NCBI GenBank assembly: GCA_016781635.1
Contig: JADDPY010000537.1
Location: 1-14,306, forward strand
From: Rubrobacter sp.
Lineage (GTDB): Bacteria > Actinomycetota > Rubrobacteria > Rubrobacterales > Rubrobacteraceae
Reading direction: 5' to 3'
DNA: 14,306 nt
How positions within the stretch are numbered: the stretch's first letter is position 1; the number at the start of each line of letters is the position of its first letter. The position numbers and the translations under genes are program-made. Shown here piece by piece: positions 1,699-14,221 of this stretch. The notes under the pieces were generated by a model. It did no database searches. It was given only the letters and a program-made list of their open reading frames with translations, and was not told the DNA's origin.

Positions 1699-3276
1699 AT
1701 GACAGGCATCCTGAGAGCCGTGCTCTCTATCTCGGCGGCGACCATCCTTTCGCGGGTAACGGGATACGGACGGACGATGGTGCAAGCAGCCGTCCTCGGG
1801 ACCGCCATCGTGGCCGATGCTTACGCTTACGCCGTCTTGTTGCCGACGCTCATCTACGAGCTCTTTCTGGGCGGCATCCTGTACTCCATCTTCATACCGG
1901 TACTCGTCGACCGCATCACCAAACATGGCGAGGACGACGCGCGTCGCCTCACCGAGGCCCTGTTCACCTTCATACTTCCGCTAACTGCCGTGGCGGCGCT
2001 CCTGGGCATCGTCTTCGCCGAGCCGTTGGTGAGCGTAGCCTCCGACTGGGGTGCGACGCGCGAGGTCTCGCAGGCGCAGGCGCGGGAGACCTCGGAGCTT
2101 GCGGTGTTCTTTTTCAGGATCTTCGCCCTGCAAATGCTCTTCTACGGCGTCACCACCATAGCCACCGGGGTGCTGCAAGCCCACCGCCGCTTCTTTCTGC
2201 CCACCTTCGCTCCCGTGCTGAACAACCTAATCATCATAGTCTCGTTCGGTGCCTACGCGGCCCTCCGTGAGACCAATCCGACGACTGCCTTGTACGTCCT
2301 CGCCGGGGGCGTGTCGGTGGGGGTCGCGGTCATGGCCCTGGCGCTCGTGCCGACCATGCTGGCCCTGGGCTATAAACCGCGCCCCCGGCTCCGGCACCCG
2401 GCCCTTCTCCCCACGGCGAAGCTCGCCGGGCCGATGGTCGTGCTCGTAGCGGCCTCCGTGGGGTTCCAGTTTTTCGGGGCCTACCTCGCCTCCGGGTTCG
2501 GGGCCGTCGCCGAGCTCGGCTACGCGTTTACGATCTTCTCGCTGCCCTACGGGGTGTTCGTGGTCGCCATCGCCACGGCGCTGATGCCCGAGCTCTCCGA
2601 GAAGCACTCCAGGGGCGACGCCGAGGGCTACCGCGAAACCTTCTCTTTCGGCCTACGGACGTTGAGCTTCGTCGTGGTGCCGTCCGCCGTAGGCATGGCC
2701 GCGCTAGCCCACCCCATGGTCGGCCTGCTCTACGAGCGCGGGGAGTTCCGACCCGAGGCCACCGCGACCGTCGCGAACCTTCTCGTCGCCTACGCGGTAG
2801 GTCTGCTCGGCTACTCGGCATACTTCTACCTCGTGCGGGCGTTCTACTCGCGGCAGAACACGAGCACCCCAGCCATTCTGAACGTCGCCATCTTCGTGCT
2901 GTACGTCGCCCTCGCCTACGGGCTCTCGCTTCTGTGGGAGGCGCAGGGCATCGTGCTAGCGCTCTCGGCGGCCTACGCCGCGTTAGCCCTCGTAGCGCTG
3001 GTCGCGACGAGCAGGGAGATCAAAGGCCTCGGCGGCCGGCGCTTGCTCTCCTCGTTCGCCAAGATGCTCGTCGCGGGCGCCGCGATGTACGCCGTCGCGT
3101 GGGGCGGAACGGCGCTTCTGGGGACGGGCTCTGGTGCCCTGGACCGCGCCGTCATCCTTGCCGTAGTCGGCGGCACCTCGCTCGCCGCGTACCTCGCAGT
3201 GGCCTACGCCCTCAAAGCCGAAGAGTTGAGCCCTGCCGTAGCGCTCTTCAAGCGTCGCTTCATCCGGGGATCGTAG
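1699..3276 (+). CDS. murJ: MurJ/MviN-type lipid II flippase
   Basis: The 525-residue protein is hydrophobic throughout, with about 14 predicted membrane segments, the usual length and topology for MurJ of the MOP flippase superfamily. The N-terminus carries the family signature: ILSRVTGYGR (Arg19 and Arg25), then an Asp-Ala-Tyr at 40-42 and ELFLGGILYSIFIPV where MurJ has LFAEGAFSSAFVPV. MurJ moves lipid-linked peptidoglycan precursor across the membrane. There is no C-terminal pseudokinase or sugar-binding extension like that of mycobacterial MviN. The ATG has no obvious ribosome site; TTGCTA (1663-1668) and TAGTAC (1684-1689), 15 bases apart, would start a nearly leaderless message, which is a weak possibility. 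Family membership is clear, but a MurJ-like flippase for another lipid-linked glycan cannot be excluded, especially with the acyl-transfer locus nearby. Confidence 0.88.
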   Translation: MTGILRAVLSISAATILSRVTGYGRTMVQAAVLGTAIVADAYAYAVLLPTLIYELFLGGILYSIFIPVLVDRITKHGEDDARRLTEALFTFILPLTAVAALLGIVFAEPLVSVASDWGATREVSQAQARETSELAVFFFRIFALQMLFYGVTTIATGVLQAHRRFFLPTFAPVLNNLIIIVSFGAYAALRETNPTTALYVLAGGVSVGVAVMALALVPTMLALGYKPRPRLRHPALLPTAKLAGPMVVLVAASVGFQFFGAYLASGFGAVAELGYAFTIFSLPYGVFVVAIATALMPELSEKHSRGDAEGYRETFSFGLRTLSFVVVPSAVGMAALAHPMVGLLYERGEFRPEATATVANLLVAYAVGLLGYSAYFYLVRAFYSRQNTSTPAILNVAIFVLYVALAYGLSLLWEAQGIVLALSAAYAALALVALVATSREIKGLGGRRLLSSFAKMLVAGAAMYAVAWGGTALLGTGSGALDRAVILAVVGGTSLAAYLAVAYALKAEELSPAVALFKRRFIRGS

Positions 3277-3420: not shown

Positions 3421-4959
3421 TTACTTGTGGCTCTGAGCCTTCCAGGCGGCCGCGGATACGTCCTTGATAAGCTCCTTGCCGACCTCCACGTCGTCCGGGC
3501 CATGCTTCGAGAAGATCGCGGCGACGTACGGCCGCTCGCCCTCCTGGACGACGCCGGCATCGTCGTAGACCTTGTAGAGCCAGCCGGTCTTGTTCGCGGC
3601 ATAGACGTCGTCGGGGAGGCCCGCTTCCAACCAGCGGTCCGTTACGTTCTGGTACATGAGGTAGAGCATGTCTTTACAGCTCACGTCGCTTGCGGCTTTC
3701 CCGGTGGCTATCCCCGAAAGGATCGTCGCCATGTCGCGGGGGGTGGTCTGGTTGTCGAGGCCGGTCACGATGGCCCGCTCGCTCGTGATCTTGTTGCGGA
3801 GCACGGTGTTCTCGGCCCCGAGGTCCTTCGCCACCTCGTTGACGTGCTCCGCCCCGCCGACCTTGCGGACGAGGGCGTTGGTCGCCACGTTGTCGCTCTG
3901 CGTCATCATCATGTACAGGTAGTCCTCGACGGTGTGGGCGATCCCGGCCTCCTCCCACTGAAGCCAGCCCGCGCCCGCGGCCCAGTCACCTTCCTCCGTC
4001 TCGAAAGAGTCGCTCAGGGCAAGTTCGCCCTCGTCGATTTTGCGGTAGACGGCGACCATGACCGGAACCTTCATAACGGAGGCCCCGAAGAACGGCTCGT
4101 CCGCGCGCACCCCGTACCCGATGCCCCCTTTAGGGTCCACGACGTAAGCGCCTGCGATGCCGGCGTGATCCTTCTCGTATCCCTCGACCGCCCGGCGGAT
4201 GGGCTCGAGCCCCTCGTCGACCCTTTTGCCCTCGTCCCCGTCCACGCCCTCGGTGACGGGATTCGGCGGGGAGAAGACGGCGGGCTCGACCTCTGGGAGC
4301 TTCCCCGGCTTTACGGGGTTCACGAGCAGCCCTTCCGCACCCCCTTCGAGGGCCAGGTTCTCCGGGTAGACGGACTTCACGAGGTCCTCGGGCACCCCGG
4401 CGAGCAAGACGTTCTCGTTATCCGGGTACTCGGGCTCGTCGGCCCGGATGGACTGCTCGACCGTCCACTTCCCGTCGTCGCCCCGCTTGGTGAAGAGGAA
4501 GTAGGTCCCCTCCTCGCCCGGGCAATCCACGCGCACCGAGGCCCACGCCGGGTCCTTCGTGCTCTTATAGACGCCCTCTATGTCCTCCGGCTTCATGCCG
4601 GGTATCTCGGAGGCCACGACCCGGTAGGCCGCCGCCTCCGGCGAGGCCTCCTTCTGCTCGGAGACGGGCACCCGTACGGGAGCCTCCTCCTCGGGCGCGA
4701 GCTTTGCTTCCCCCCTGTCTGCCGGACCCGCGACCGCCGCTTGCGACGGCGTCCCGTCGGGGCGCGACCCGGAAAGTTTCTCACCTATGTTCGGGGAGTC
4801 GCCGGGGGAGGAGAAGAGGACGAAGGCGGCGCACGCGACGGCGACGAGAACCACCGCGGGTATGCCGTAGCGGCGCCAAGGGCTGCGGCGCTGCTTCATG
4901 CTGAACTGCCGGGCGCGCCTCATCGCTCGCCCCCTTCGCCATCGAGGCCTGGGAAGCAA
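3421..4959 (-). CDS. Membrane-anchored serine hydrolase, class A beta-lactamase fold
   Basis: This 512-residue protein has a short basic N-terminus, one membrane segment (about 31-49), an Ala/Pro/Glu-rich linker, a domain of unclear identity at about 105-220, and a beta-lactamase2/class A-like domain at about 260-510. The catalytic motifs are present: Ser294-x-x-Lys297 (GASVMKVPV), Ser355-Asp356-Asn357 (TQSDNVATNAL) and Lys457-Thr-Gly (NKTGW). The class A general base Glu166 is not evident: aligning on the TTPRDM segment puts Lys at that place, with a Glu at 394 nearby. It is therefore more likely a peptidase or transpeptidase-like envelope enzyme than a resistance beta-lactamase. I chose the TTG at 4959 because GGGAGGGAGGAAGA lies just before it and it sits 24 bases after the VanW stop. 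ATG codons at 4923 and 4899 are alternatives. It is the second gene of a two-gene operon with VanW. Confidence 0.85.
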   Translation of the reverse strand: MLPRPRWRRGRAMRRARQFSMKQRRSPWRRYGIPAVVLVAVACAAFVLFSSPGDSPNIGEKLSGSRPDGTPSQAAVAGPADRGEAKLAPEEEAPVRVPVSEQKEASPEAAAYRVVASEIPGMKPEDIEGVYKSTKDPAWASVRVDCPGEEGTYFLFTKRGDDGKWTVEQSIRADEPEYPDNENVLLAGVPEDLVKSVYPENLALEGGAEGLLVNPVKPGKLPEVEPAVFSPPNPVTEGVDGDEGKRVDEGLEPIRRAVEGYEKDHAGIAGAYVVDPKGGIGYGVRADEPFFGASVMKVPVMVAVYRKIDEGELALSDSFETEEGDWAAGAGWLQWEEAGIAHTVEDYLYMMMTQSDNVATNALVRKVGGAEHVNEVAKDLGAENTVLRNKITSERAIVTGLDNQTTPRDMATILSGIATGKAASDVSCKDMLYLMYQNVTDRWLEAGLPDDVYAANKTGWLYKVYDDAGVVQEGERPYVAAIFSKHGPDDVEVGKELIKDVSAAAWKAQSHK

Positions 4960-4983
4960 TCTTCCTCCCTCCCGGGCACCATG

Positions 4984-6402
4984 CTAATCGGCCCAGCCGG
5001 TGGTGTTGGTCGGGTCGAGCCAGCCGGAGGTGCGGGGCTCGCTTGTCTCGTGCTTCATATCCTCGGGGACGGGCGGGTTGAAGCTGTAGATGCTCTCGCC
5101 GATGACCCCGTCGGAGATGACCTCACCGTTCTCGCCCGTCACCTTCTTGTAGGTGACCCATTTAATCCCCTCGGTGGGGCTCTGCTTGACCTTCTCGGCG
5201 CTCAAGACGACCTTGCGGCCGGTCGGCTCCTGCCCGAGAATCTGGGCGGTCAGGAAGCCGTCCTCGTCCACAAACTCTCGCACGAGGATGTTGCCGTCGG
5301 TGGTGTTCTTGAACTTCATGTCCAGGGGCTGCCAGTCACCGAACCACACCGTGGCGTCGAACCCGGGGGTGATGTACGGAAGCTCGGCGTAGTGCTGGTG
5401 GCGTTCGGTGATCTCGAGCCCGGCGTAGTTTGCCGCCATAAACAGGGTCGAGGAGACCTGGCAGAGTCCGCCGCCCTCCTCCGAGGAGACGCCACCCTCC
5501 GAGAAAACCTTGGCCTCCTCATAATCCAGGCTTCCGGCCTGCTCGGTGAAGGAGAACTCCTCCCCCGGCGCGAGCATGGTGCTGTCCACGGCCTCGGAGG
5601 CCATCTTGAGGTTCGCCTGGCGCCCCTCATCCGGGTCCCAGGCGTAGTCGGTCTTGTACTCGCCGAGAAGCTCGGTCGGCGCGCTCGCCCGGGCCTCCTC
5701 GGTCGAGACCGCGGGCTCCTTGCGCTCCGCCGCGAGAGCGACTTCGCCGCTCAACCCCTTCAGCGAACCTTCCAGGTTGTCCAGGGTAGCGTCGACGTCG
5801 ACGGCGCGGCCGGGAGCGGCCTCCTCGACCTCGACCTCGCCGCTCTTGGTTACTACCGGGGCGGCATCCTTGGGCTCCGTGTTCAGCTCGCTCGCCACCC
5901 CCTCGATAGCCTCGCGGGCGGCGGCCTCGTCGTACGTCGCGGCGGCCGGCACGCCTACCCCGCCGCCGAGGTAGGAGCCGACAAAGTCGGAGAGGCGCTG
6001 GAAAGCGCCGCCCCGACGACCGACGGAGTAAGCCTCTTCTACCGCGGATCCAGCATCGACCTGAACCCCGAGCTCCTCGCCCGTGAAGGTCGCCGCGCCG
6101 TCTCCGACGTCGATCTCGCCAAGCTTCCCGGAGACGTGGCGGGTCAGGGCCTCGCCGGCCTCGGCCTTCGTCATGCCACCAAGGTCCACCTCGCCGGAAT
6201 GGACGCCACGGCGGATCGTCTCCCCGTTGACCATCGAATAATCCACGACGAGCCCCCCGACGAGGAGGGCGCCCGCCGCGATCACGATCGCAACCAGGCG
6301 TCGACGCCTCCAGGCGGCGCGCTGCTCCTTGTTACTCGTCGCGTGCTCCCGACGATGTTTGCGGGGCCCTAAAGGCCCTGTCGTCTCGTTCAATTCTTTC
6401 AA
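4984..6402 (-). CDS. VanW family protein with peptidoglycan-binding-like domain
   Basis: Read from the TTG at 6402 the protein has 472 residues: a basic cytoplasmic tail, one membrane segment (about 36-53), a PG_binding_4-like domain (about 95-200), and a VanW domain (about 245-400) with APGEEFSFTE, GGGLCQVSSTL, HYAELPYITPG and DATVWFGD. The Cys in GGGLCQVSS is at about 314. VanW occurs in vancomycin-resistance clusters and widely in Gram-positive envelope genes; its activity is not established. The frame stays open to an ATG at 6561 (525 residues). I prefer 6402 because GGAGGGG sits seven bases before that TTG, the extra 159 bases are lower in GC, and they contain a promoter-like pair. The serine hydrolase gene follows after 24 bases, so the two are probably cotranscribed. 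The C-terminal tail (TSGWLDPTNTTGWAD) is not recognised. Confidence 0.85.
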   Translation of the reverse strand: MKELNETTGPLGPRKHRREHATSNKEQRAAWRRRRLVAIVIAAGALLVGGLVVDYSMVNGETIRRGVHSGEVDLGGMTKAEAGEALTRHVSGKLGEIDVGDGAATFTGEELGVQVDAGSAVEEAYSVGRRGGAFQRLSDFVGSYLGGGVGVPAAATYDEAAAREAIEGVASELNTEPKDAAPVVTKSGEVEVEEAAPGRAVDVDATLDNLEGSLKGLSGEVALAAERKEPAVSTEEARASAPTELLGEYKTDYAWDPDEGRQANLKMASEAVDSTMLAPGEEFSFTEQAGSLDYEEAKVFSEGGVSSEEGGGLCQVSSTLFMAANYAGLEITERHQHYAELPYITPGFDATVWFGDWQPLDMKFKNTTDGNILVREFVDEDGFLTAQILGQEPTGRKVVLSAEKVKQSPTEGIKWVTYKKVTGENGEVISDGVIGESIYSFNPPVPEDMKHETSEPRTSGWLDPTNTTGWAD

Positions 6403-6409
6403 GAGTCCG

Positions 6410-6416
6410 CCCCTCC
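6410..6416 (-). promoter_or_regulatory. Ribosome binding site deciding the VanW start
   Basis: GGAGGGG on the minus strand lies seven bases upstream of the TTG at 6402. No comparable site precedes the alternative ATG at 6561. This is the main reason for choosing the shorter protein. Confidence 0.5.
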
Positions 6417-6469
6417 GCGGTATCAGTCGGCGATGCCTGCTCCGAGAAACCTGCAGACGACCAGATCCA

Positions 6470-6498
6470 ATTATGTATTCGAGAAGCCCAACCTTCAA
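6470..6498 (-). promoter_or_regulatory. Probable promoter of the VanW-serine hydrolase operon
   Basis: On the minus strand TTGAAG (6498-6493) and CATAAT (6475-6470) are separated by exactly 17 bases, a good sigma-70-type arrangement. Transcription would begin near 6463, about 60 bases before the TTG at 6402. The pair lies inside the longer reading frame starting at 6561, which argues that the longer start is not used. Confidence 0.5.
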
Positions 6499-6553
6499 GG
6501 CTCGAAGTAGATCGTATATCAGTCGAACGTCGATTTGGCGGCCCGGTTTTGGC

Positions 6554-6583
6554 TTGGACATTGCGGTATCGCTCCTTTACACT
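6554..6583 (+). promoter_or_regulatory. Candidate promoter of the GNAT-ACP-ligase-decarboxylase locus
   Basis: TTGGAC (6554-6559) and TACACT (6578-6583) are 18 bases apart. A start near 6590 would give a leader of about 150 bases before the GTG at 6742, and that leader contains the inverted repeat at 6653-6692. The match is moderate and rests on sequence similarity alone. Confidence 0.3.
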
Positions 6584-6741: not shown

Positions 6742-7941
6742 GTGAAGGCCATAGTCAGACCCATGGAGGAGACCGACCTCGCAGGGGTCAACAAGCTGCG
6801 GACCCTTATATATCCTCACTATCCCGAGGCCTACTACACCGACTGGCACGAGTCCGTGTGGAACTGGCTGGGGACCCACCCTGCTGCGGATCATATGCAC
6901 CGCTGGGTCGTCGCCGCGGGGGATGAGATCGTGGGCCATCTGGCCGCGACGCCGCAGTACTATAGGGTCAACGGCCACCGGGTCCTCGCCCACACGCCGG
7001 CCGACTACCAGGTCATGCCCCAGTACGGCTTTCAGGCCCTCTCCATCATGCGAAAGTTCTTCCGCACCGTCGAGAACTGCGTAGCCTGCGACATGGTACC
7101 GACCGTGATCGCCGTGGAGACCCGCCTCGGGGCGGTGGAGGCCGGGAAGATGCAGTACGCTGCCAAGCTCCTCGACGTCTCCCGCCTCCCCTCGCCGACC
7201 ATCGACGACGTGCGCGGCCTCTTCTCCCGAAATGGCGCGGGGGCACGCGGACCCTACAGGGGGTTCGAGGAGCCCGGGGCGAGTGCGGCGGTCATGGAGC
7301 AAGAGACCGCCCCGCCGCCCAAGCGCCCCCGCGCCCCGATCCCCGCCCCCGTCAAGGGCCTCCTGAATCGGGGGCTTGCGCTGGTGGACGAGGCCCTCGG
7401 AGGCGGGATGGATGATCGCGTCAAGGTATCGCGCCTAAGCGGCGCCTTCGACGCCTCGTTCGACGAGCTCTTCGAGGACATCGCCGCGGTCGTGCCCTGC
7501 ATACCGGAGAAGGACGCGGCGTTCCTCAACTGGCGTTACGGACCGAGCTCGCCCCAGCATCCTGTCACCGTCCTGGTGGCGAGGGAGGGCGTGAAGCTCC
7601 TCGGTTACGCCGTGTTGCGCGTCACCAGGGAGGGCGAGGACGGGTACATACTCGACCTGACGGCGAAACCGGGCCGCCACGACGCGGCGCGGGCGCTCTT
7701 GCGGGAGACCGTCCGGGAATTCAGGGAGCAGGGAGTCCACATCATCAGGTATCGCTTCTCTGACTCGCCAACCTCCGCTCGTGCAGCGGATTTATGGCGC
7801 CTGGGCTTCTTCCCGCGCAACGACCGGAGCAACACTTTGCTCGTCAAGTTGGCGGACAAAGGGCTCCACGAGACCGCTCGCGACATCGCCAACTGGTCGT
7901 ACGATGTCGGAGATGGCGAGGCTACTTTCTGGGTAAGGTAG
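6742..7941 (+). CDS. GNAT-family N-acyltransferase, two-lobed
   Basis: This 399-residue soluble protein begins with a typical GNAT first strand and helix (KAIVRPMEETDLAGVNKLR), followed by a first acyltransferase-like lobe to about residue 150. A Pro/Ala-rich linker lies at about 165-230. A second lobe at about 235-399 has FLNWRY (261-266), a core strand VKLLGYAVLRV and DGYILDLTA. The CoA-loop signature of a normal GNAT is degenerate in lobe one (VMPQYGFQAL). The GTG at 6742 is chosen because the next start, ATG at 6763, would cut into the first strand; the ribosome site is poor. The gene sits 49 bases before the ACP gene and points the same way. The likely role is transfer of an acyl group to an amine, perhaps taking it from the ACP rather than from CoA. 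Acceptor and donor are unproven. Confidence 0.75.
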   Translation: MKAIVRPMEETDLAGVNKLRTLIYPHYPEAYYTDWHESVWNWLGTHPAADHMHRWVVAAGDEIVGHLAATPQYYRVNGHRVLAHTPADYQVMPQYGFQALSIMRKFFRTVENCVACDMVPTVIAVETRLGAVEAGKMQYAAKLLDVSRLPSPTIDDVRGLFSRNGAGARGPYRGFEEPGASAAVMEQETAPPPKRPRAPIPAPVKGLLNRGLALVDEALGGGMDDRVKVSRLSGAFDASFDELFEDIAAVVPCIPEKDAAFLNWRYGPSSPQHPVTVLVAREGVKLLGYAVLRVTREGEDGYILDLTAKPGRHDAARALLRETVREFREQGVHIIRYRFSDSPTSARAADLWRLGFFPRNDRSNTLLVKLADKGLHETARDIANWSYDVGDGEATFWVR

Positions 7942-7958
7942 TACGGTGTCGTTTCGTG

Positions 7959-7968
7959 TTACCGGTAA
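7959..7968. repeat. Short palindrome upstream of the ACP gene
   Basis: TTACCGGTAA is a perfect 10-base palindrome in the 49-base gap between the GNAT and ACP genes, about 22 bases before the ACP start. It could be part of an operator or a chance match. Confidence 0.2.
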
Positions 7969-7990
7969 GATGAAATAAGGAGGCAACACC

Positions 7991-8242
7991 ATGTCAGTAA
8001 GCACCGAGAACGCCGCCGCCGCTATTCGCGAGTGGCTGCAGGAGAACGTAACCGGGAACCGCGAGGTCTCCGACGACGAGCAGCTTATAGAGAACGGCGT
8101 TCTGACGTCGCTGCAGACCGTCGAGCTCGTGATGTTCCTGGAGGACCGCTTCGGGGTCACGGTCGAGGACGAGGAGCTGGACGAGGAGAACTTCGCCTCC
8201 GTCCGGACCATCGCCGACCTGGTCACCAGCAAGTCCGCCTGA
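7991..8242 (+). CDS. Acyl carrier protein (phosphopantetheine-binding)
   Basis: This 83-residue acidic protein has the size and four-helix pattern of an acyl or peptidyl carrier protein: DDEQLIENGVLTSLQTVELV followed by MFLEDRFGVTVEDEELDEENF. The expected phosphopantetheine attachment residue is Ser40, in TSLQ. The usual Asp before that Ser is Thr here, so the motif is TSL rather than DSL. A strong ribosome site, AAGGAGG (7976-7982), precedes the ATG. The stop codon lies two bases before the ligase ATG, so the two are probably translationally coupled. It is a dedicated carrier for the neighbouring ligase and decarboxylase rather than the fatty-acid ACP, judged from context. A holo-ACP synthase encoded elsewhere would be needed to activate it. 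Confidence 0.88.
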   Translation: MSVSTENAAAAIREWLQENVTGNREVSDDEQLIENGVLTSLQTVELVMFLEDRFGVTVEDEELDEENFASVRTIADLVTSKSA

Positions 8243-8244
8243 TC

Positions 8245-9822
8245 ATGCGCCCAGAGTTCACACTACACGACCTGCTCTTCAACTCCGCCGAGCGCGCCCC
8301 CCAAAAGGTCGCGGTCGTCGACGGCAACGCGGAGCACACCTACGAGGACATGCACCGCGAGAGCGGCGCGTTGGCCGCCGCCCTGCAGGACGCCGGGGTA
8401 AAGAAGGGCGACCGGGTCGGCGTCCTCATGGATAAGTCCTGGGAGGCGATCATCGCGATGATAGCCGCCTCGCGCGCGGGAGCGGCCTTCGTCAACATCA
8501 ACCCTCAGCTCAGGGCCCAGCAGGTCCGCTACATCACCGAGGACTGCGACGCCCGTGTCATCATCGGCGACTCCGCCAAGCTCGGCGAGCTGGAGCCGAA
8601 GACGGGAGAGAGGGCATTCTACAAGGGCGAGGAGCCGGACGCCGGGGGCATCTCCGGCGAGCTCACCGACCTCGCCGAGGTTCTCGCCGGCGACGGCTCC
8701 CCCCGAGAGACGTCCGTCTCCGAGGTCGACCTCGCGACGATCCTGTACACCTCCGGCTCGACCGGGATGCCGAAAGGCGTCTCCACGAGCCACCGCAACT
8801 TCGTGGCGGGGTCCCAGATTGTCTCGACGTACCTGGAGAATACCTCCGAGGACCGCATCCTCTCGGCCCTCCCGTTCAACTTCGACGCCGGGCTCAACCA
8901 GTTCACGACGTCGCTGCGGGTGGGCGCGACCCTGGCCCTGCTCCGGTCGAGGCTGCCGGGCGACCTATTGAAGGGCCTTCGCCGCCACGAGATCACGGGT
9001 GTCACCGGCGTTCCACCGCTGTGGGCGCTCTTGCTCCGCGGTTCGAAGTCCCTCCAGGAGCAGCCGCTCACGCATCTGCGCTACATCTCCAACACCGGCG
9101 GGCGCATCCCGCAGGCCAACCTCGACGAGTTGAGACGTCTGTTGGAGCCAAACGGCACCAAGATCTACCTGATGTACGGCCTCACGGAAGCGTTCCGTTC
9201 CACGTACCTGCCGCCCGAGGAGATAGAGCGCGGCACCGAGTGCATCGGCAAGGCCATCCCGGACACTCAGATTATCGTCATAAACAAGGAAGGTAAGGAG
9301 TGCGCCCCCGGCGAGGTCGGCGAGCTCGTCCACCGCGGCCCCACGGTCGCGATGGGCTACTGGGGGAAGCCCGAGAAGACGGCGAAGGCGTATCGTCCGA
9401 ACCCGCTCGCCCCGCCGGAGCTTCTGGACGTCGAGAGGGTGGTGTACTCCGGGGATCAGGTCAGACGCGACGAGGACGGTTTTCTGTACTTCGTCGGGCG
9501 CGAGGACGCGATGATAAAGTCCCAGGGCTACCGGATGAGCCCCGAGGAGATAGAGAACCTCCTTATAAGCTCGGGGTACGTGCACGAGGCCTGCTCCTTC
9601 GGGGTGTCGAACCCTGACGTCGGGCACGACGTGGTCGCGGTCGTCTCGTTGAAGGGCGACGTGGACGGCGACGATCCCATTGGGGCCATCAAACGGTACG
9701 CGGTGAACAACGGGCCGCCATACATGGTGCCAAAGGAGATTTTGGTCCAGGACGAGCTCCCGAAGACGCCCTCCGGCAAGATCGACCGCAAGGGGATTAG
9801 CAATGCGTACGCAGATAGATAA
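8245..9822 (+). CDS. AMP-forming acyl ligase resembling exosortase A system-associated ligases
   Basis: This 525-residue ANL-superfamily adenylating enzyme has all the core motifs: the P-loop LYTSGSTGMPKG (167-178), YGLTEAFRSTYLPPEE (311-326), YSGDQVRRDEDGFLYFVGR with Asp404, and the C-terminal PKTPSGKIDRK with catalytic Lys512. It should activate a carboxylate with ATP and pass it to a thiol, here most likely the ACP encoded just before it. The TEAFRSTYLPPEE wording and the CAPGEVGELVHRG segment match my recollection of the family named 'acyl-CoA ligase (AMP-forming), exosortase A system-associated'. The frame is open further upstream, but that region is the ACP gene in another frame. ATG 8245, two bases after the ACP stop, is the natural coupled start. 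The gene overlaps the decarboxylase by 20 bases. Substrate unknown. Confidence 0.88.
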   Translation: MRPEFTLHDLLFNSAERAPQKVAVVDGNAEHTYEDMHRESGALAAALQDAGVKKGDRVGVLMDKSWEAIIAMIAASRAGAAFVNINPQLRAQQVRYITEDCDARVIIGDSAKLGELEPKTGERAFYKGEEPDAGGISGELTDLAEVLAGDGSPRETSVSEVDLATILYTSGSTGMPKGVSTSHRNFVAGSQIVSTYLENTSEDRILSALPFNFDAGLNQFTTSLRVGATLALLRSRLPGDLLKGLRRHEITGVTGVPPLWALLLRGSKSLQEQPLTHLRYISNTGGRIPQANLDELRRLLEPNGTKIYLMYGLTEAFRSTYLPPEEIERGTECIGKAIPDTQIIVINKEGKECAPGEVGELVHRGPTVAMGYWGKPEKTAKAYRPNPLAPPELLDVERVVYSGDQVRRDEDGFLYFVGREDAMIKSQGYRMSPEEIENLLISSGYVHEACSFGVSNPDVGHDVVAVVSLKGDVDGDDPIGAIKRYAVNNGPPYMVPKEILVQDELPKTPSGKIDRKGISNAYADR

Positions 9823-11131
9823 GGCTCACGACCTCGCCGAGCGCTTCGGTGGCTGGAAGGACGGTGTACTCGCCCCCGGTGGCGTGAAGGTCTCGGATAT
9901 CGCCGCCGAACACGGCTCGCCGTTTTACCTCTACCACGGCGAGATGATCGTGGATAGGGTTCGGCGCGTCCGCGAAGCCCTCGGCGGCGACGTCGAGGTC
10001 ACCTACTCGGTCAAGGCGAATCCGAACCTCGCGGTGAACCAGGTGATCGCGCGCGAGCATCTCACAGGGGCGGAGGTCGCCTCCTCGGGCGAACTCGTGG
10101 TGGCGCGCAAGGCGGGGTTTGCTCCGGAGGACATCGTTTTCGCCGGTCCCGCAAAGACCGACGAAGAGCTCGGCATGGCCGTCGAGGAGGGCATCTTCGC
10201 GGTCAACGTCGAGTCGGTCTACGAGATCAACCGTCTGGCCGCCGTCGCCGAGCGCCAGAACAAGAACATCGGCGTCGGCCTCCGCGTAAACCCGGCCCAG
10301 CAGCTTATGGGCAGCGGGATGCGGATGGGCGGCACGGTCGGGCAGTTCGGCCTGGACGAGGCTGATCTCGAAGAGGCGGTCCGCCGGACGCTCGCCCACC
10401 CCGACCACATGACGCTCCGCGGCATCCACGTCTACACGGCGACGCAGGTCTTCGAGGTGGATCCCCTGATCGAGCACTGCCGCAACATCTTCGAGCTCGC
10501 CCTGAAGACCGCCGACCTCGCGGGCCGGCCGATGGAGATGGTCGACTTCGGCGGCGGCTTCGGCGTCCCGTACTTCGAGAAGCTGGAGGAGTTCGACCTG
10601 GAGCGCTTCGGCGCCGGGTTCCAAGAGCTTCTTGCCCACTACCGGACCGACCCTCGCCTCGAAGGCTGCCGATTCGTCTTCGAGCTCGGCCGCTACCTCG
10701 TCGCCGACGCGGGCCTCTACGTCACCAAGGTGATTGACGTCAAGGACATGAAGGGCAAGACCTTCGTGACCACCGACGGCGGAATGAACCACCACCTCAC
10801 CGCGACCGGCAACATGGGCCAGGTCTTCAGGAAGGCGTACCCGATCCTGAACCTCTCCCGCTCCCCCGGCGAGGGGGAGCCCGTCGCTCTCGCGGGCCCG
10901 TGCTGCACGCCGCTGGACATGTTCGGAACCAACATCCCGCTCGCCGACCCGCAGCCCGGCGACCTTGTCGGCGTCTTTTACAGCGGGGCCTACGGTTTCA
11001 GCGCGAGCAACCTCGGCTTCCTCAGCCACCCGAACCCGGCCGAAATACTGATCTGGCAGGGCGAGCCACGACTCTTGCGCCCTGTCGGCAAGCCCGAGGA
11101 CGTTCTCAAGGGCCAGGAAGCACTCGTTTAG
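9803..11131 (+). CDS. PLP-dependent decarboxylase, fold type III (DAP/ornithine decarboxylase-like)
   Basis: This 442-residue alanine-racemase-fold decarboxylase shows the PLP-binding Lys71 in VTYSVKANPN, His209 in HVYTATQ, the glycine-rich phosphate loop VDFGGGFGVPYF (247-258), ELGR (294-297, where DAP decarboxylase has EPGR), the GPCCTPLDMF segment with Cys367/Cys368 and Asp372, and SGAYGFS with Tyr397. The run TDGGMNHHLTATGNMGQ fits the family named 'pyridoxal-dependent decarboxylase, exosortase A system-associated', better than a biosynthetic LysA. It should remove an alpha-carboxylate from an amino acid. With the ligase and ACP alongside, an ACP-bound amino-acyl group is a plausible substrate, as for BtrK in butirosin biosynthesis. 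The ATG lies inside the last codons of the ligase gene, with AGGGG about nine bases upstream, indicating coupled translation. Confidence 0.87.
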   Translation: MRTQIDKAHDLAERFGGWKDGVLAPGGVKVSDIAAEHGSPFYLYHGEMIVDRVRRVREALGGDVEVTYSVKANPNLAVNQVIAREHLTGAEVASSGELVVARKAGFAPEDIVFAGPAKTDEELGMAVEEGIFAVNVESVYEINRLAAVAERQNKNIGVGLRVNPAQQLMGSGMRMGGTVGQFGLDEADLEEAVRRTLAHPDHMTLRGIHVYTATQVFEVDPLIEHCRNIFELALKTADLAGRPMEMVDFGGGFGVPYFEKLEEFDLERFGAGFQELLAHYRTDPRLEGCRFVFELGRYLVADAGLYVTKVIDVKDMKGKTFVTTDGGMNHHLTATGNMGQVFRKAYPILNLSRSPGEGEPVALAGPCCTPLDMFGTNIPLADPQPGDLVGVFYSGAYGFSASNLGFLSHPNPAEILIWQGEPRLLRPVGKPEDVLKGQEALV

Positions 11132-11158: not shown

Positions 11159-11195
11159 GAAGAAGGGGAGCTGCTTCGAGCAGCTCCCCCCTCTT
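11159..11195. terminator. Bidirectional rho-independent-type terminator
   Basis: GGGGAGCTGCT (11165-11175) pairs perfectly with AGCAGCTCCCC (11179-11189) over a TCG loop. After one mismatch the stem continues for five more pairs. It begins about 30 bases after the decarboxylase stop. On the plus strand the tail is only weakly U-rich (TCTTCC). On the minus strand the hairpin is followed by TTCTTCTTTTTACC, a good U-rich tail. It probably ends both the ACP operon and the convergent VanW transcript. Confidence 0.75.
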
Positions 11196-11502: not shown

Positions 11503-13314
11503 TTATTGCCTGACGGCCGGGACCGGGACCTCGGGCGGCGGGATGGTCTTGCCTTTTTCGTCTATCAGGGGGTTGTAGGTGTCTTTGTGGAGGAGGCCGT
11601 CGTAGATCACCTCTCCGTCCTTCGTCACCTTCTGGTAGGTGTTCCACTTGGAGTAGTCCGCGCCCATGTACTTGGGCTCTGAAGTCATCTCGACCTTCGT
11701 GTTGCTGGGCTTGCCGTAGACCTCGGCGTAGAGGTAGCCGTCAGCGGCGACGCGCTGGCGGATGAGCACGTAGCCGTCGGAGGTATTCTCGAACTTCATG
11801 TCGAGGGCGCCGACGCCGTTCTCGTCACCGAACCACACCGTGGCGTCGAGGCCGGGCCTTATGTACGGCAGCTGAGCGTAGTGGGGGCTGCGCTCGGTGA
11901 TGTCGAGCCCGGCATAGTTGGCGGCCATATACAGGGTCGAGGTAACCTGGCAGAGACCGCCGCCATCAGCCAGTGTCTCCTTGCCGTCGATGATAACCTT
12001 GGTCGCGTTGTAGTCGAGCCCGGCGACATTCTCGTTCATGGAGAAGATCTCGCCCGGCGCTACAAACAAGCCGTCCACGGCCTCTGAGGCTATCTCGAGG
12101 TTCTCCACACGCTTACCGTCATCCGGAACGACGGCATAATCGGTGCGGTACTTGCCGAGAAGATCGGTCGGCTTGAGGGCTTCGGCCTCGGCGGTGACGA
12201 GCTCGGGCTCGTCGGTGACGACCGGGATCTCGTACTCGCGCCGCCCCTCGAAGAGCCCGGTCTCGAGGTCCGCGAAGAACGCTTGCTCGTCGACCGCCAT
12301 ACCGGTTTGGCTGGCCGTCACGACTACCTCGTCGCCGTTCAGCTCATAGCCCGCCTCGCGTGGCTCGGCGGTGAGCGCCTGTATCGGCTCGGACGCAGCG
12401 GCCCGGAGCCTCTCGCGATTCAGCGCAACGTCGATCTCACCGCCCTTCGGCACGAAGTCGAGCGTCTGGCCGACCTCGGCGGGTGTCAGGGTCCACTCCT
12501 CCTCCCCGGTGGAGAGCGAAACTTCCCCGGACATGACGTCCCGGGCCTCGGTGGCCGCGGCCTCGGCGGCCGGCGTATCCACGGCGGGTTCGACGGTCTC
12601 ACCCACCATCTCGGTCTCCCCGGTGGCCCCCTCGATGGCCGCCCGGATGTTCGCGGCGGTCGCCGGCACGTTCATCCCGTACCCCTCGCGCGATTCCCCG
12701 ACCAGGACCTCGGCCCCCTCCACGGCGACGGATGCCTCGCGAGGCTGCCCGTCGACCCTCTGGGCGACGGCCTGGGTCAAGGCGTCGACCCGCGCGGGGT
12801 CGTACCCGATCTCGGGAGACACCTCAGCGGAACCGTAAGCGGCCTGAAGCCGACTCGTCAGGCGCTCGAGAACGTTGCCGCCGCGGCCGATCTCGTAGGC
12901 CCGATCCATGGTAGCGGGGACATCGTAAGAGACGCCCAGTTGCCGGGCACCGAGGGTGAAGTCTTGGGGCCCGCTCAGGTCGATCTCGTCGAGGTTCTGC
13001 GCGAGGCGCTCCTGGACCTGCGCTTCGGCCTCCCCGGTGGTCTTGCCACCGACGTCCACGCCGGCCACGGAGACGCCGTTGTAGATCCTGCCGGAATTGC
13101 TCCAGTAGTCCAGTGCCACCGCCCCGGCAAGCACGGCACAGACGACGAGCACGACAATAGAGACCTTGCGCCGTCCCCTCGAAGAGCCGCGAGGATACCC
13201 CCCGCCGCTAACCGTCTTCCTCGAAGATTTGTAAGTCTCCAATCGTCCCCCCACACGTGGATTGCTCGCCAAGTCTATCCCATAAATCTTGTGGTTAAAG
13301 CCCGTCAGCGCCAA
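11503..13314 (-). CDS. VanW family protein with two peptidoglycan-binding-like domains
   Basis: This protein of up to 603 residues has a basic cytoplasmic tail, one membrane segment (about 51-69), two PG_binding_4-like repeats (about 75-250 and 255-385), and a VanW domain (about 393-525) with DLLGKYRTDYA, APGEIFSMNE, GGGLCQVTSTL, HYAQLPYIRPG and DATVWFGD. A C-terminal segment with YQKVTKDGEVIYDGLL matches the equivalent part of the other VanW protein in this window. The start is uncertain: TTG 13314 (AGGGG ten bases upstream) gives the full length, while TTG 13242, with GGGGGG four bases upstream, gives a shorter cytoplasmic tail like that of the other paralogue. It lies 13 bases after the stop of the 108-residue gene and is probably cotranscribed with it. 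It is predicted to sit in the membrane facing the cell wall; the catalytic role of VanW is unknown. Confidence 0.85.
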   Translation of the reverse strand: MALTGFNHKIYGIDLASNPRVGGRLETYKSSRKTVSGGGYPRGSSRGRRKVSIVVLVVCAVLAGAVALDYWSNSGRIYNGVSVAGVDVGGKTTGEAEAQVQERLAQNLDEIDLSGPQDFTLGARQLGVSYDVPATMDRAYEIGRGGNVLERLTSRLQAAYGSAEVSPEIGYDPARVDALTQAVAQRVDGQPREASVAVEGAEVLVGESREGYGMNVPATAANIRAAIEGATGETEMVGETVEPAVDTPAAEAAATEARDVMSGEVSLSTGEEEWTLTPAEVGQTLDFVPKGGEIDVALNRERLRAAASEPIQALTAEPREAGYELNGDEVVVTASQTGMAVDEQAFFADLETGLFEGRREYEIPVVTDEPELVTAEAEALKPTDLLGKYRTDYAVVPDDGKRVENLEIASEAVDGLFVAPGEIFSMNENVAGLDYNATKVIIDGKETLADGGGLCQVTSTLYMAANYAGLDITERSPHYAQLPYIRPGLDATVWFGDENGVGALDMKFENTSDGYVLIRQRVAADGYLYAEVYGKPSNTKVEMTSEPKYMGADYSKWNTYQKVTKDGEVIYDGLLHKDTYNPLIDEKGKTIPPPEVPVPAVRQ

Positions 13315-13975: not shown

Positions 13976-14221
13976 GTGAGAGAAGAAGCGCCAGCAGGAG
14001 CAGCAGGAGAATTGAAAGATTACTACGGTTGCAATAAGGCCAAGATGCTGATGCTCCACAGGCGCGTGGAGTGCTGTCCGACGTGCCACAATTGGGACGA
14101 GTTGGAGGATTGGACGGGTTACCGCTTCAAGTTGCCCGACGGGGAAGAGGTCAGGGTGTGCTGCGAGGTAGGTGATAGGCTGGCCGAGAAGCACCTGGAC
14201 GGCTTCTACGCCAGCGCCTAA
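13976..14221 (+). CDS. Small Cys-rich protein, possible metal binder
   Basis: This protein of up to 81 residues has five Cys downstream of the first: YYGC, then ECCPTCHNWDELEDW, then VRVCCEVGD. The CPTC pair and following Cys-Cys suggest a small zinc-binding or redox module, but I do not recognise the family. The start is uncertain. GTG 13976 gives the longest form; a TTG at 14012 directly after AGGAGAA, and ATG 14045 with AAGG five bases upstream, are alternatives, the last losing the first Cys. The ATG forms retain ECCPTC and VCC. A hairpin follows the stop within 30 bases, supporting a real transcription unit. There is no signal peptide, so a cytoplasmic location is expected. Confidence 0.55.
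   Translation: MREEAPAGAAGELKDYYGCNKAKMLMLHRRVECCPTCHNWDELEDWTGYRFKLPDGEEVRVCCEVGDRLAEKHLDGFYASA

Follow-up and report, generated by a model that had tools for sequence, protein, structure and literature searches.

The window analysed here, the whole of a 14.3-kb contig (G000:C705; 14,306 nucleotides) from a Rubrobacter-like assembly of 3.2 Mb that is 77.7% complete, carries a cassette of four genes coding for a tandem-GNAT protein, an acyl carrier protein (ACP), an AMP-forming ligase and a decarboxylase dependent on pyridoxal phosphate (PLP). There is good support for the conclusion that this cassette would make a carrier-bound omega-amino acyl group: the decarboxylase is akin to BtrK, a separate LysA is present in the cassette genomes tested, the ligase keeps the substrate residues of VinN and the genes are co-conserved. 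Sequence comparison also indicates that the amino acid is quite probably decarboxylated while bound to the carrier, and peptidoglycan is the rather likely destination of the product. The complete chain, from aspartyl-S-ACP through beta-alanyl-S-ACP to an interpeptide cross-bridge of peptidoglycan, has in our estimation an even chance of being correct. An earlier reading of the bare sequence (below, the sequence-only reading) had proposed loading, on-carrier decarboxylation and transfer to an envelope amine; the kinship with BtrK and VinN, the kept residues and the co-conservation agree with this core, whereas the destination shifts from a stand-alone decoration to peptidoglycan.

In the proposed pathway the ligase would adenylate the side-chain carboxylate of L-aspartate and attach the aspartate to the carrier's phosphopantetheine arm. 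The BtrK-like decarboxylase would then strip the carrier-bound amino acid of its free alpha-carboxylate to give beta-alanyl-S-ACP, and the tandem-GNAT, alone or together with a cassette-type FemAB protein where one is present, would move the beta-alanyl group to the stem-peptide side-chain amine of a peptidoglycan precursor (lysine in Rubrobacter, ornithine in Sphaerobacter), the modified precursor being flipped by MurJ. Substrate, product, acceptor and acting transferase are those that we infer.

Proteins of the cassette and their co-conservation

Among solved structures the best relative of the decarboxylase is BtrK (E 1.1e-81), followed by 6knh (3.5e-52) and 2p3e (5.8e-46). BtrK is the L-glutamyl-[BtrI] decarboxylase, acting on a carrier-bound amino acid, and it outscores the best solved chain named diaminopimelate decarboxylase. 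The lysA model TIGR01048 gave 271.4 bits, under its cut-off of 297.9; when the cassette decarboxylases of six genomes were compared with this model, five fell below the cut-off and the G011 copy scored exactly 297.9. A separate true LysA, at 445–503 bits, was found in all six cassette genomes tested. On these two grounds, and with the caveat of the G011 copy, identity of the cassette enzyme with LysA was rejected.

The ligase (PF00501, 286.9 bits) is nearer to VinN than to the other single-module ligases of the solved set, in which BtrJ is absent. When it is aligned to VinN, which we take to be a 3-methylaspartate ligase, the head-group places are occupied in the window copy by Asp, Thr and Arg; the Asp and the Arg are invariant in 21 rows and the middle place is Thr or Ser in 9 rows. 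These positions in VinN presumably hold the amino acid, with the Arg as the alpha-carboxylate binder. The place of VinN K330 is taken by Phe.

The carrier protein matches PF00550 at 27.7 bits (cut-off 20.8) and has TSL where DSL is usual around the phosphopantetheine serine, T, S and L being invariant in 20 rows. L038 has, adjoining MurJ and about 3 kb beyond the downstream end of its cassette, a phosphopantetheinyl transferase gene (12462-13259) whose product could activate the carrier.

The GNAT matches PF00583 above the cut-off (34.0 bits) and PF13527 below it (21.6 of 25), these two being its only Pfam families, and has no match to PF02388 of the FemABX family. Its alignment holds 56 invariant columns over 37 rows. 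The AlphaFold model (pLDDT 84.7) has a tandem-GNAT fold like that of NMT and Eis, and the 50 structure matches listed are NMT, Eis and similar acetyltransferases; by sequence the best E value against solved chains was only 0.19, and BLASTP found no similarity to the stand-alone FemAB of the same genome. Genome G028 has three further GNAT copies (L144, L151, L153) and a fragment away from the cassette, one of them within a 973-aa frame on the second contig, of 205 kb.

Twenty related loci were counted, not including the window, after L051 (34%, partial, Micrarchaeota) had been dropped from 21. The order ACP–ligase–decarboxylase is found in 19 of them and the GNAT gene stands immediately before the ACP gene in 18; L050 starts within the ligase, and in L042 a FemAB gene lies between GNAT and ACP. 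Among 39 Rubrobacteraceae genomes (thresholds E ≤ 1e-3 for the GNAT and E ≤ 1e-60 for the decarboxylase) both proteins occur in 24 and neither in the remaining 15, and weak GNAT matches were seen in 2 of the 60 other genomes surveyed. The lack of co-conservation that the sequence-only reading had regarded as its possible undoing did not occur, and its question for a neighbourhood survey, whether the GNAT is conserved, can be answered positively. At 21 ligase/decarboxylase junctions the two genes overlap by 20 bases in 18 cases; the exceptions are L047 and L077, the two Sphaerobacter loci, with 17 bases, and L048 with 4. Because the overlap recurs in this way, the arrangement is conserved and not due to chance.

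The set is also present on contigs labelled Thermomicrobiales, Chloroflexota, Chloroflexi or Sphaerobacter (L039, L046, L047, L048). Sampling of the class around the Sphaerobacter metagenome-assembled genome gave the decarboxylase in 5 of 120 genomes; among 400 sampled Chloroflexota genomes, 3 have it at 64–67% identity (E ≤ 1e-90). At E ≤ 1e-55 a further 24 of the 400 match with 33–40% identity; within about 1.5 kb on each side of these weaker matches there is no relative of the ACP, the GNAT or FemAB, and one of them (L122) has a 29% ligase-like open reading frame (ORF) beside the decarboxylase. The window decarboxylase shares 97% identity with its counterpart in Rubrobacter marinus SCSIO 52915, 79–80% with those of L037, L038 and L039, on contigs labelled 'bacterium' or Thermomicrobiales, and 64–68% with those of L046–L048. 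The high identity in L037, L038 and L039 may reflect either horizontal transfer or misbinning.

Destination and identity of the acyl group

Peptidoglycan is proposed as the target because of the FemAB, MurJ and MurE neighbours of the cassette and the murein of Sphaerobacter thermophilus. FemAB adjoins the cassette in 11 of the 20 loci, by Pfam in L032, L033, L035, L036, L039, L042, L044 and L046 and by BLAST to these in L034, L045 and L049; the contigs of L037 and L047 end too early downstream to judge. In a tree of 42 rows and 40 different sequences, in which L044 and L085 stand for one and the same gene, the 17 Rubrobacter-type cassette rows, including L039, form a clade (100/100), and nine stand-alone Rubrobacteraceae FemABs, among them those of the window genome and of R. 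marinus, are placed apart from it (100/100). The FemABs next to the L046 cassette form another clade with those of G100 and G563 (100/100), and L060, a further FemAB beyond MurJ near the L039 cassette, is a long branch outside both clades. Seven of the FemABs beside cassettes give matches to the FemX lysine-alanyltransferase model, each scoring far under the cut-off.

MurJ is present in the window and in 11 of the 20 loci, with differing arrangements in Chloroflexota. In G563 (L106) the order is MurE (divergent; TIGR01085, 481 bits against a cut-off of 257.3), ACP–ligase–decarboxylase and MurJ (convergent), and the GNAT and FemAB genes lie 2.5 kb apart on another contig. FemAB as such occurs in 8 of 9 cassette-free Rubrobacteraceae genomes (all except G020) and in 13 of 15 cassette genomes. 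In three genomes that carry the cassette, G014, G015 and G028 (97% complete), no match to FemAB was seen, which we count in favour of the proposed pathway. G034 has FemAB only as a fragment, an 89-aa frame under the cut-off (L089; G034:C53:27257-27385) about 300 bases from the cassette GNAT, perhaps a decayed FemAB.

The murein of S. thermophilus is described, in the part of the source available, as cross-linked via beta-alanine with a beta-Ala:Glu ratio of 1.6, and that part mentions no gamma-aminobutyric acid (GABA) (PMC3035262). The genome of this species (G132) carries the cassette as GNAT–GNAT–ACP–ligase–decarboxylase. With the tandem GNAT genes ahead of the carrier (L077:2611-4976), the ratio of 1.6 raises the thought that two GNATs might add two residues. 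In view of this beta-alanine murein and of the FemAB, MurJ and MurE neighbours, the related loci do not resemble the stand-alone decoration pathway of the sequence-only reading, to which FemAB was not visible because the window contains no such gene. Genome G027, presumably that of R. xylanophilus DSM 9941, is without the cassette, and this fits the Lys←Ala wall on record.

Several points weigh against the assignment to peptidoglycan or narrow its reach. S. thermophilus is the only species in which the cassette and the wall phenotype coincide, and there the genes next to the cassette are those of MgtC/DUF4010 and peptidases, with no murein gene among them. Its FemAB-like genes are on the other replicon (one of them comes nearest to the FemAB model of the XrtA type, with 126.4 of 260.35 bits), so that the GNAT is at most a candidate for the transferase. 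Neither in the window nor in R. marinus does a FemAB gene adjoin the cassette; both genomes have just a stand-alone copy. Rubrobacterales are recorded, in the portion of the source at hand, as A3alpha Lys←Ala (PMC3035278), and the literature search gave no wall chemistry for cassette-bearing Rubrobacter, R. marinus included. Beta-alanine and ornithine are among the whole-cell amino acids of all seven Dictyobacter species tabulated in the accessible part of one report (PMC12453558); for Ktedonobacter racemifer the record gives Orn, Ala, Glu, Ser and Gly, beta-alanine being unmentioned in the portion available (PMC3236041). No Chloroflexota genome above 4.1 Mb among the 400 sampled was among the 27 that matched the decarboxylase at E ≤ 1e-55, and beta-alanine-bearing Ktedonobacteria thus seem to be without the cassette, which counts against universality. 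The choice of aspartate over glutamate, finally, would follow from the S. thermophilus wall and VinN alone.

Alternatively, the acyl group might end up on a lipid, a polysaccharide or a small metabolite; the GNAT would then be an N-acyltransferase and the murein neighbours a matter of inherited synteny. In favour of this, the best NCBIfam model of the carrier is the ornithine-lipid ACP (52.4 bits, far below the cut-off of 130), the GNAT resembles NMT and Eis and lacks PF02388, the S. thermophilus flanks are those just named, and in Rubrobacteraceae MurJ may stay near the cassette simply by inheritance. We nevertheless consider such a destination unlikely, since Chloroflexota loci (L038, L039, L046, L106) again have FemAB and MurJ next to the cassette, in varied arrangements, the G563 GNAT keeps close to a FemAB gene even on a separate contig, and one FemAB clade is specific to cassette loci.

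For the group itself, if the chemistry proposed is accepted, beta-alanine is to be preferred with good probability over GABA. Loading of glutamate and formation of gamma-aminobutyryl-S-ACP as in butirosin, for the wall or another envelope amine, would agree with BtrK being a decarboxylase of carrier-bound glutamate; the position of the ligase nearer to VinN, within a solved set that lacks BtrJ, and the beta-alanine of the S. thermophilus wall, with GABA unmentioned in the available description, make this decidedly improbable. Very improbable is the use of a free amino acid (diaminopimelate or aspartate) by the decarboxylase with subsequent loading of the free product by the ligase, to which the shared LysA superfamily and the G011 copy lend some colour and which is opposed by the true LysA elsewhere in all six cassette genomes tested, by the higher score of BtrK and by the kept Arg of the ligase, presumably an alpha-carboxylate binder and needless for beta-alanine.

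Known systems and a possible third route to the cross-bridge

Butirosin biosynthesis uses a carrier (BtrI), an AMP-forming ligase (BtrJ) and a PLP decarboxylase (BtrK), as does the cassette, which differs in having no visible antibiotic gene cluster, a tandem-GNAT and often FemAB as transferase, and a more VinN-like ligase. The vicenistatin system (VinN/VinL/VinO), compared through VinN only, shares the amino-group and alpha-carboxylate places of the ligase and, we assume, carrier-bound decarboxylation to a beta-amino acyl group; K330 is replaced by Phe in the cassette ligase and the window contains no polyketide synthase. The FemX/FemAB pathway is fed by aminoacyl-tRNA, whereas the proposed donor of the cassette is a carrier protein and its GNAT is not a FemAB by Pfam, even if FemAB genes join the cassette in many loci. 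In D-alanylation of teichoic acids by Dlt, a ligase and a small carrier likewise supply an envelope amino acyl group; the cassette differs by its decarboxylase and in that none of the scanned genes of the window resembles DltB or DltD, and its carrier and ligase reach 38.6 of 68 bits with DltC and 202.9 of 476 with DltA.

The best NCBIfam models of the ligase and the decarboxylase are the exosortase A-associated TIGR03098 and TIGR03099, and the same system includes a model for FemAB, TIGR03019. The ligase stays just under the cut-off (583.4 of 592.35 bits) and the decarboxylase clearly under it (407.2 of 478.45; 426.7 for the S. thermophilus copy). Exosortase PF09721 was found in none of nine cassette genomes (the window's assembly and eight more, some incomplete), a control search giving a match in 1 of 14 well-known genomes; the sequence-only reading was right in seeing no exosortase here. 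With no exosortase in these nine genomes, the exosortase association was rejected.

Cross-bridge residues are supplied by aminoacyl-tRNA in the Fem pathway or by ATP-grasp ligases. We tentatively suggest, at somewhat less than even chance, a third route in which a side-chain-loaded amino acid is decarboxylated on a dedicated carrier and a tandem-GNAT and/or a cassette-specific FemAB attaches the resulting non-coded beta-amino acid. Such a route would account for the cross-link through beta-alanine in Sphaerobacter and would lead one to expect beta-alanine in the walls of species of the Rubrobacter marinus type; genomes such as G028 would depend on it without any FemAB. It looks like carrier-bound amino-acid chemistry put to new use in the wall: chemistry of an antibiotic type would serve the cell wall, a non-coded residue would enter peptidoglycan without tRNA, and wall type would be partly predictable from genomes. 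For the ligase, decarboxylase and FemAB genes of exosortase A systems it suggests a job, the supply of a carrier-bound amino acyl group to a Fem-type transferase. Among the matches listed in a search of the full-text literature, which leaves subscription papers outside, no genes were named for the Sphaerobacter cross-link and no carrier-protein cross-bridge route was described.

Layout of the window and minor observations

The coordinates (Table 1) confirm the four same-strand genes with a 2-base gap between ACP and ligase and a 20-base overlap of ligase and decarboxylase noted in the sequence-only reading; the gap between GNAT and ACP is 49 bases.

Table 1. Features of the cassette and its surroundings in the window
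Feature	Position	Strand	Description
GNAT	6742..7941	+	tandem-GNAT acyltransferase (399 aa, starting with GTG); would transfer the amino acyl group from the carrier
Carrier protein (ACP)	7991..8242	+	83 aa; PF00550
Ligase	8245..9822	+	AMP-forming amino acid:carrier ligase, 525 aa; PF00501
Decarboxylase	9803..11131	+	BtrK-like PLP decarboxylase, 442 aa; proposed substrate, a carrier-bound amino acid
MurJ lipid II flippase, neighbour	1699..3276	+	TIGR01695, 297.2 bits (cut-off 235.55)
VanW-like protein with peptidoglycan-binding domain, divergent neighbour	4984..6561	-	PF04294 and PF12229 above cut-off
VanW-like protein with peptidoglycan-binding domains, converging neighbour	11503..13314	-	PF04294 and PF12229 above cut-off
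Hairpin terminator between decarboxylase and VanW gene	11163..11191	-	T-run on the minus strand

The strong terminator said to end the cassette is only partly so. The hairpin is indeed strong (a 51-base fold has -27.4 kcal/mol), yet the terminator scan lists it on the minus strand only, where the T-run is, the plus-strand tail being CCTCTTCCCTGG. Since the T-run lies on that strand, the hairpin is best read as mainly terminating the converging VanW gene; it could also act in both directions, though weakly.

The window also encodes a protein with a C39-like protease domain and a class A beta-lactamase-fold protein; the latter and the two VanW/peptidoglycan-binding proteins flank the cassette (3421-6561 and 11503-13314). 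The second VanW gene is kept in 12 of the 20 related loci and the beta-lactamase-fold gene in 10. In R. marinus (L031:9434-11200) an AAA_21/AAA_15 ATPase gene stands between the decarboxylase and VanW genes; its GC content at third codon positions (GC3) is 0.60 against 0.91–0.98 in the genes from MurJ through the decarboxylase, and it looks like a recent insertion, possibly of a defence type. Downstream of the Chloroflexota cassette of L048 (10946-14731) there are a group II PLP decarboxylase and an aldehyde dehydrogenase. Near the end of the window (13976-14221) an 81-aa ORF has cysteines in zinc ribbon-like spacing and a coding-like GC pattern.

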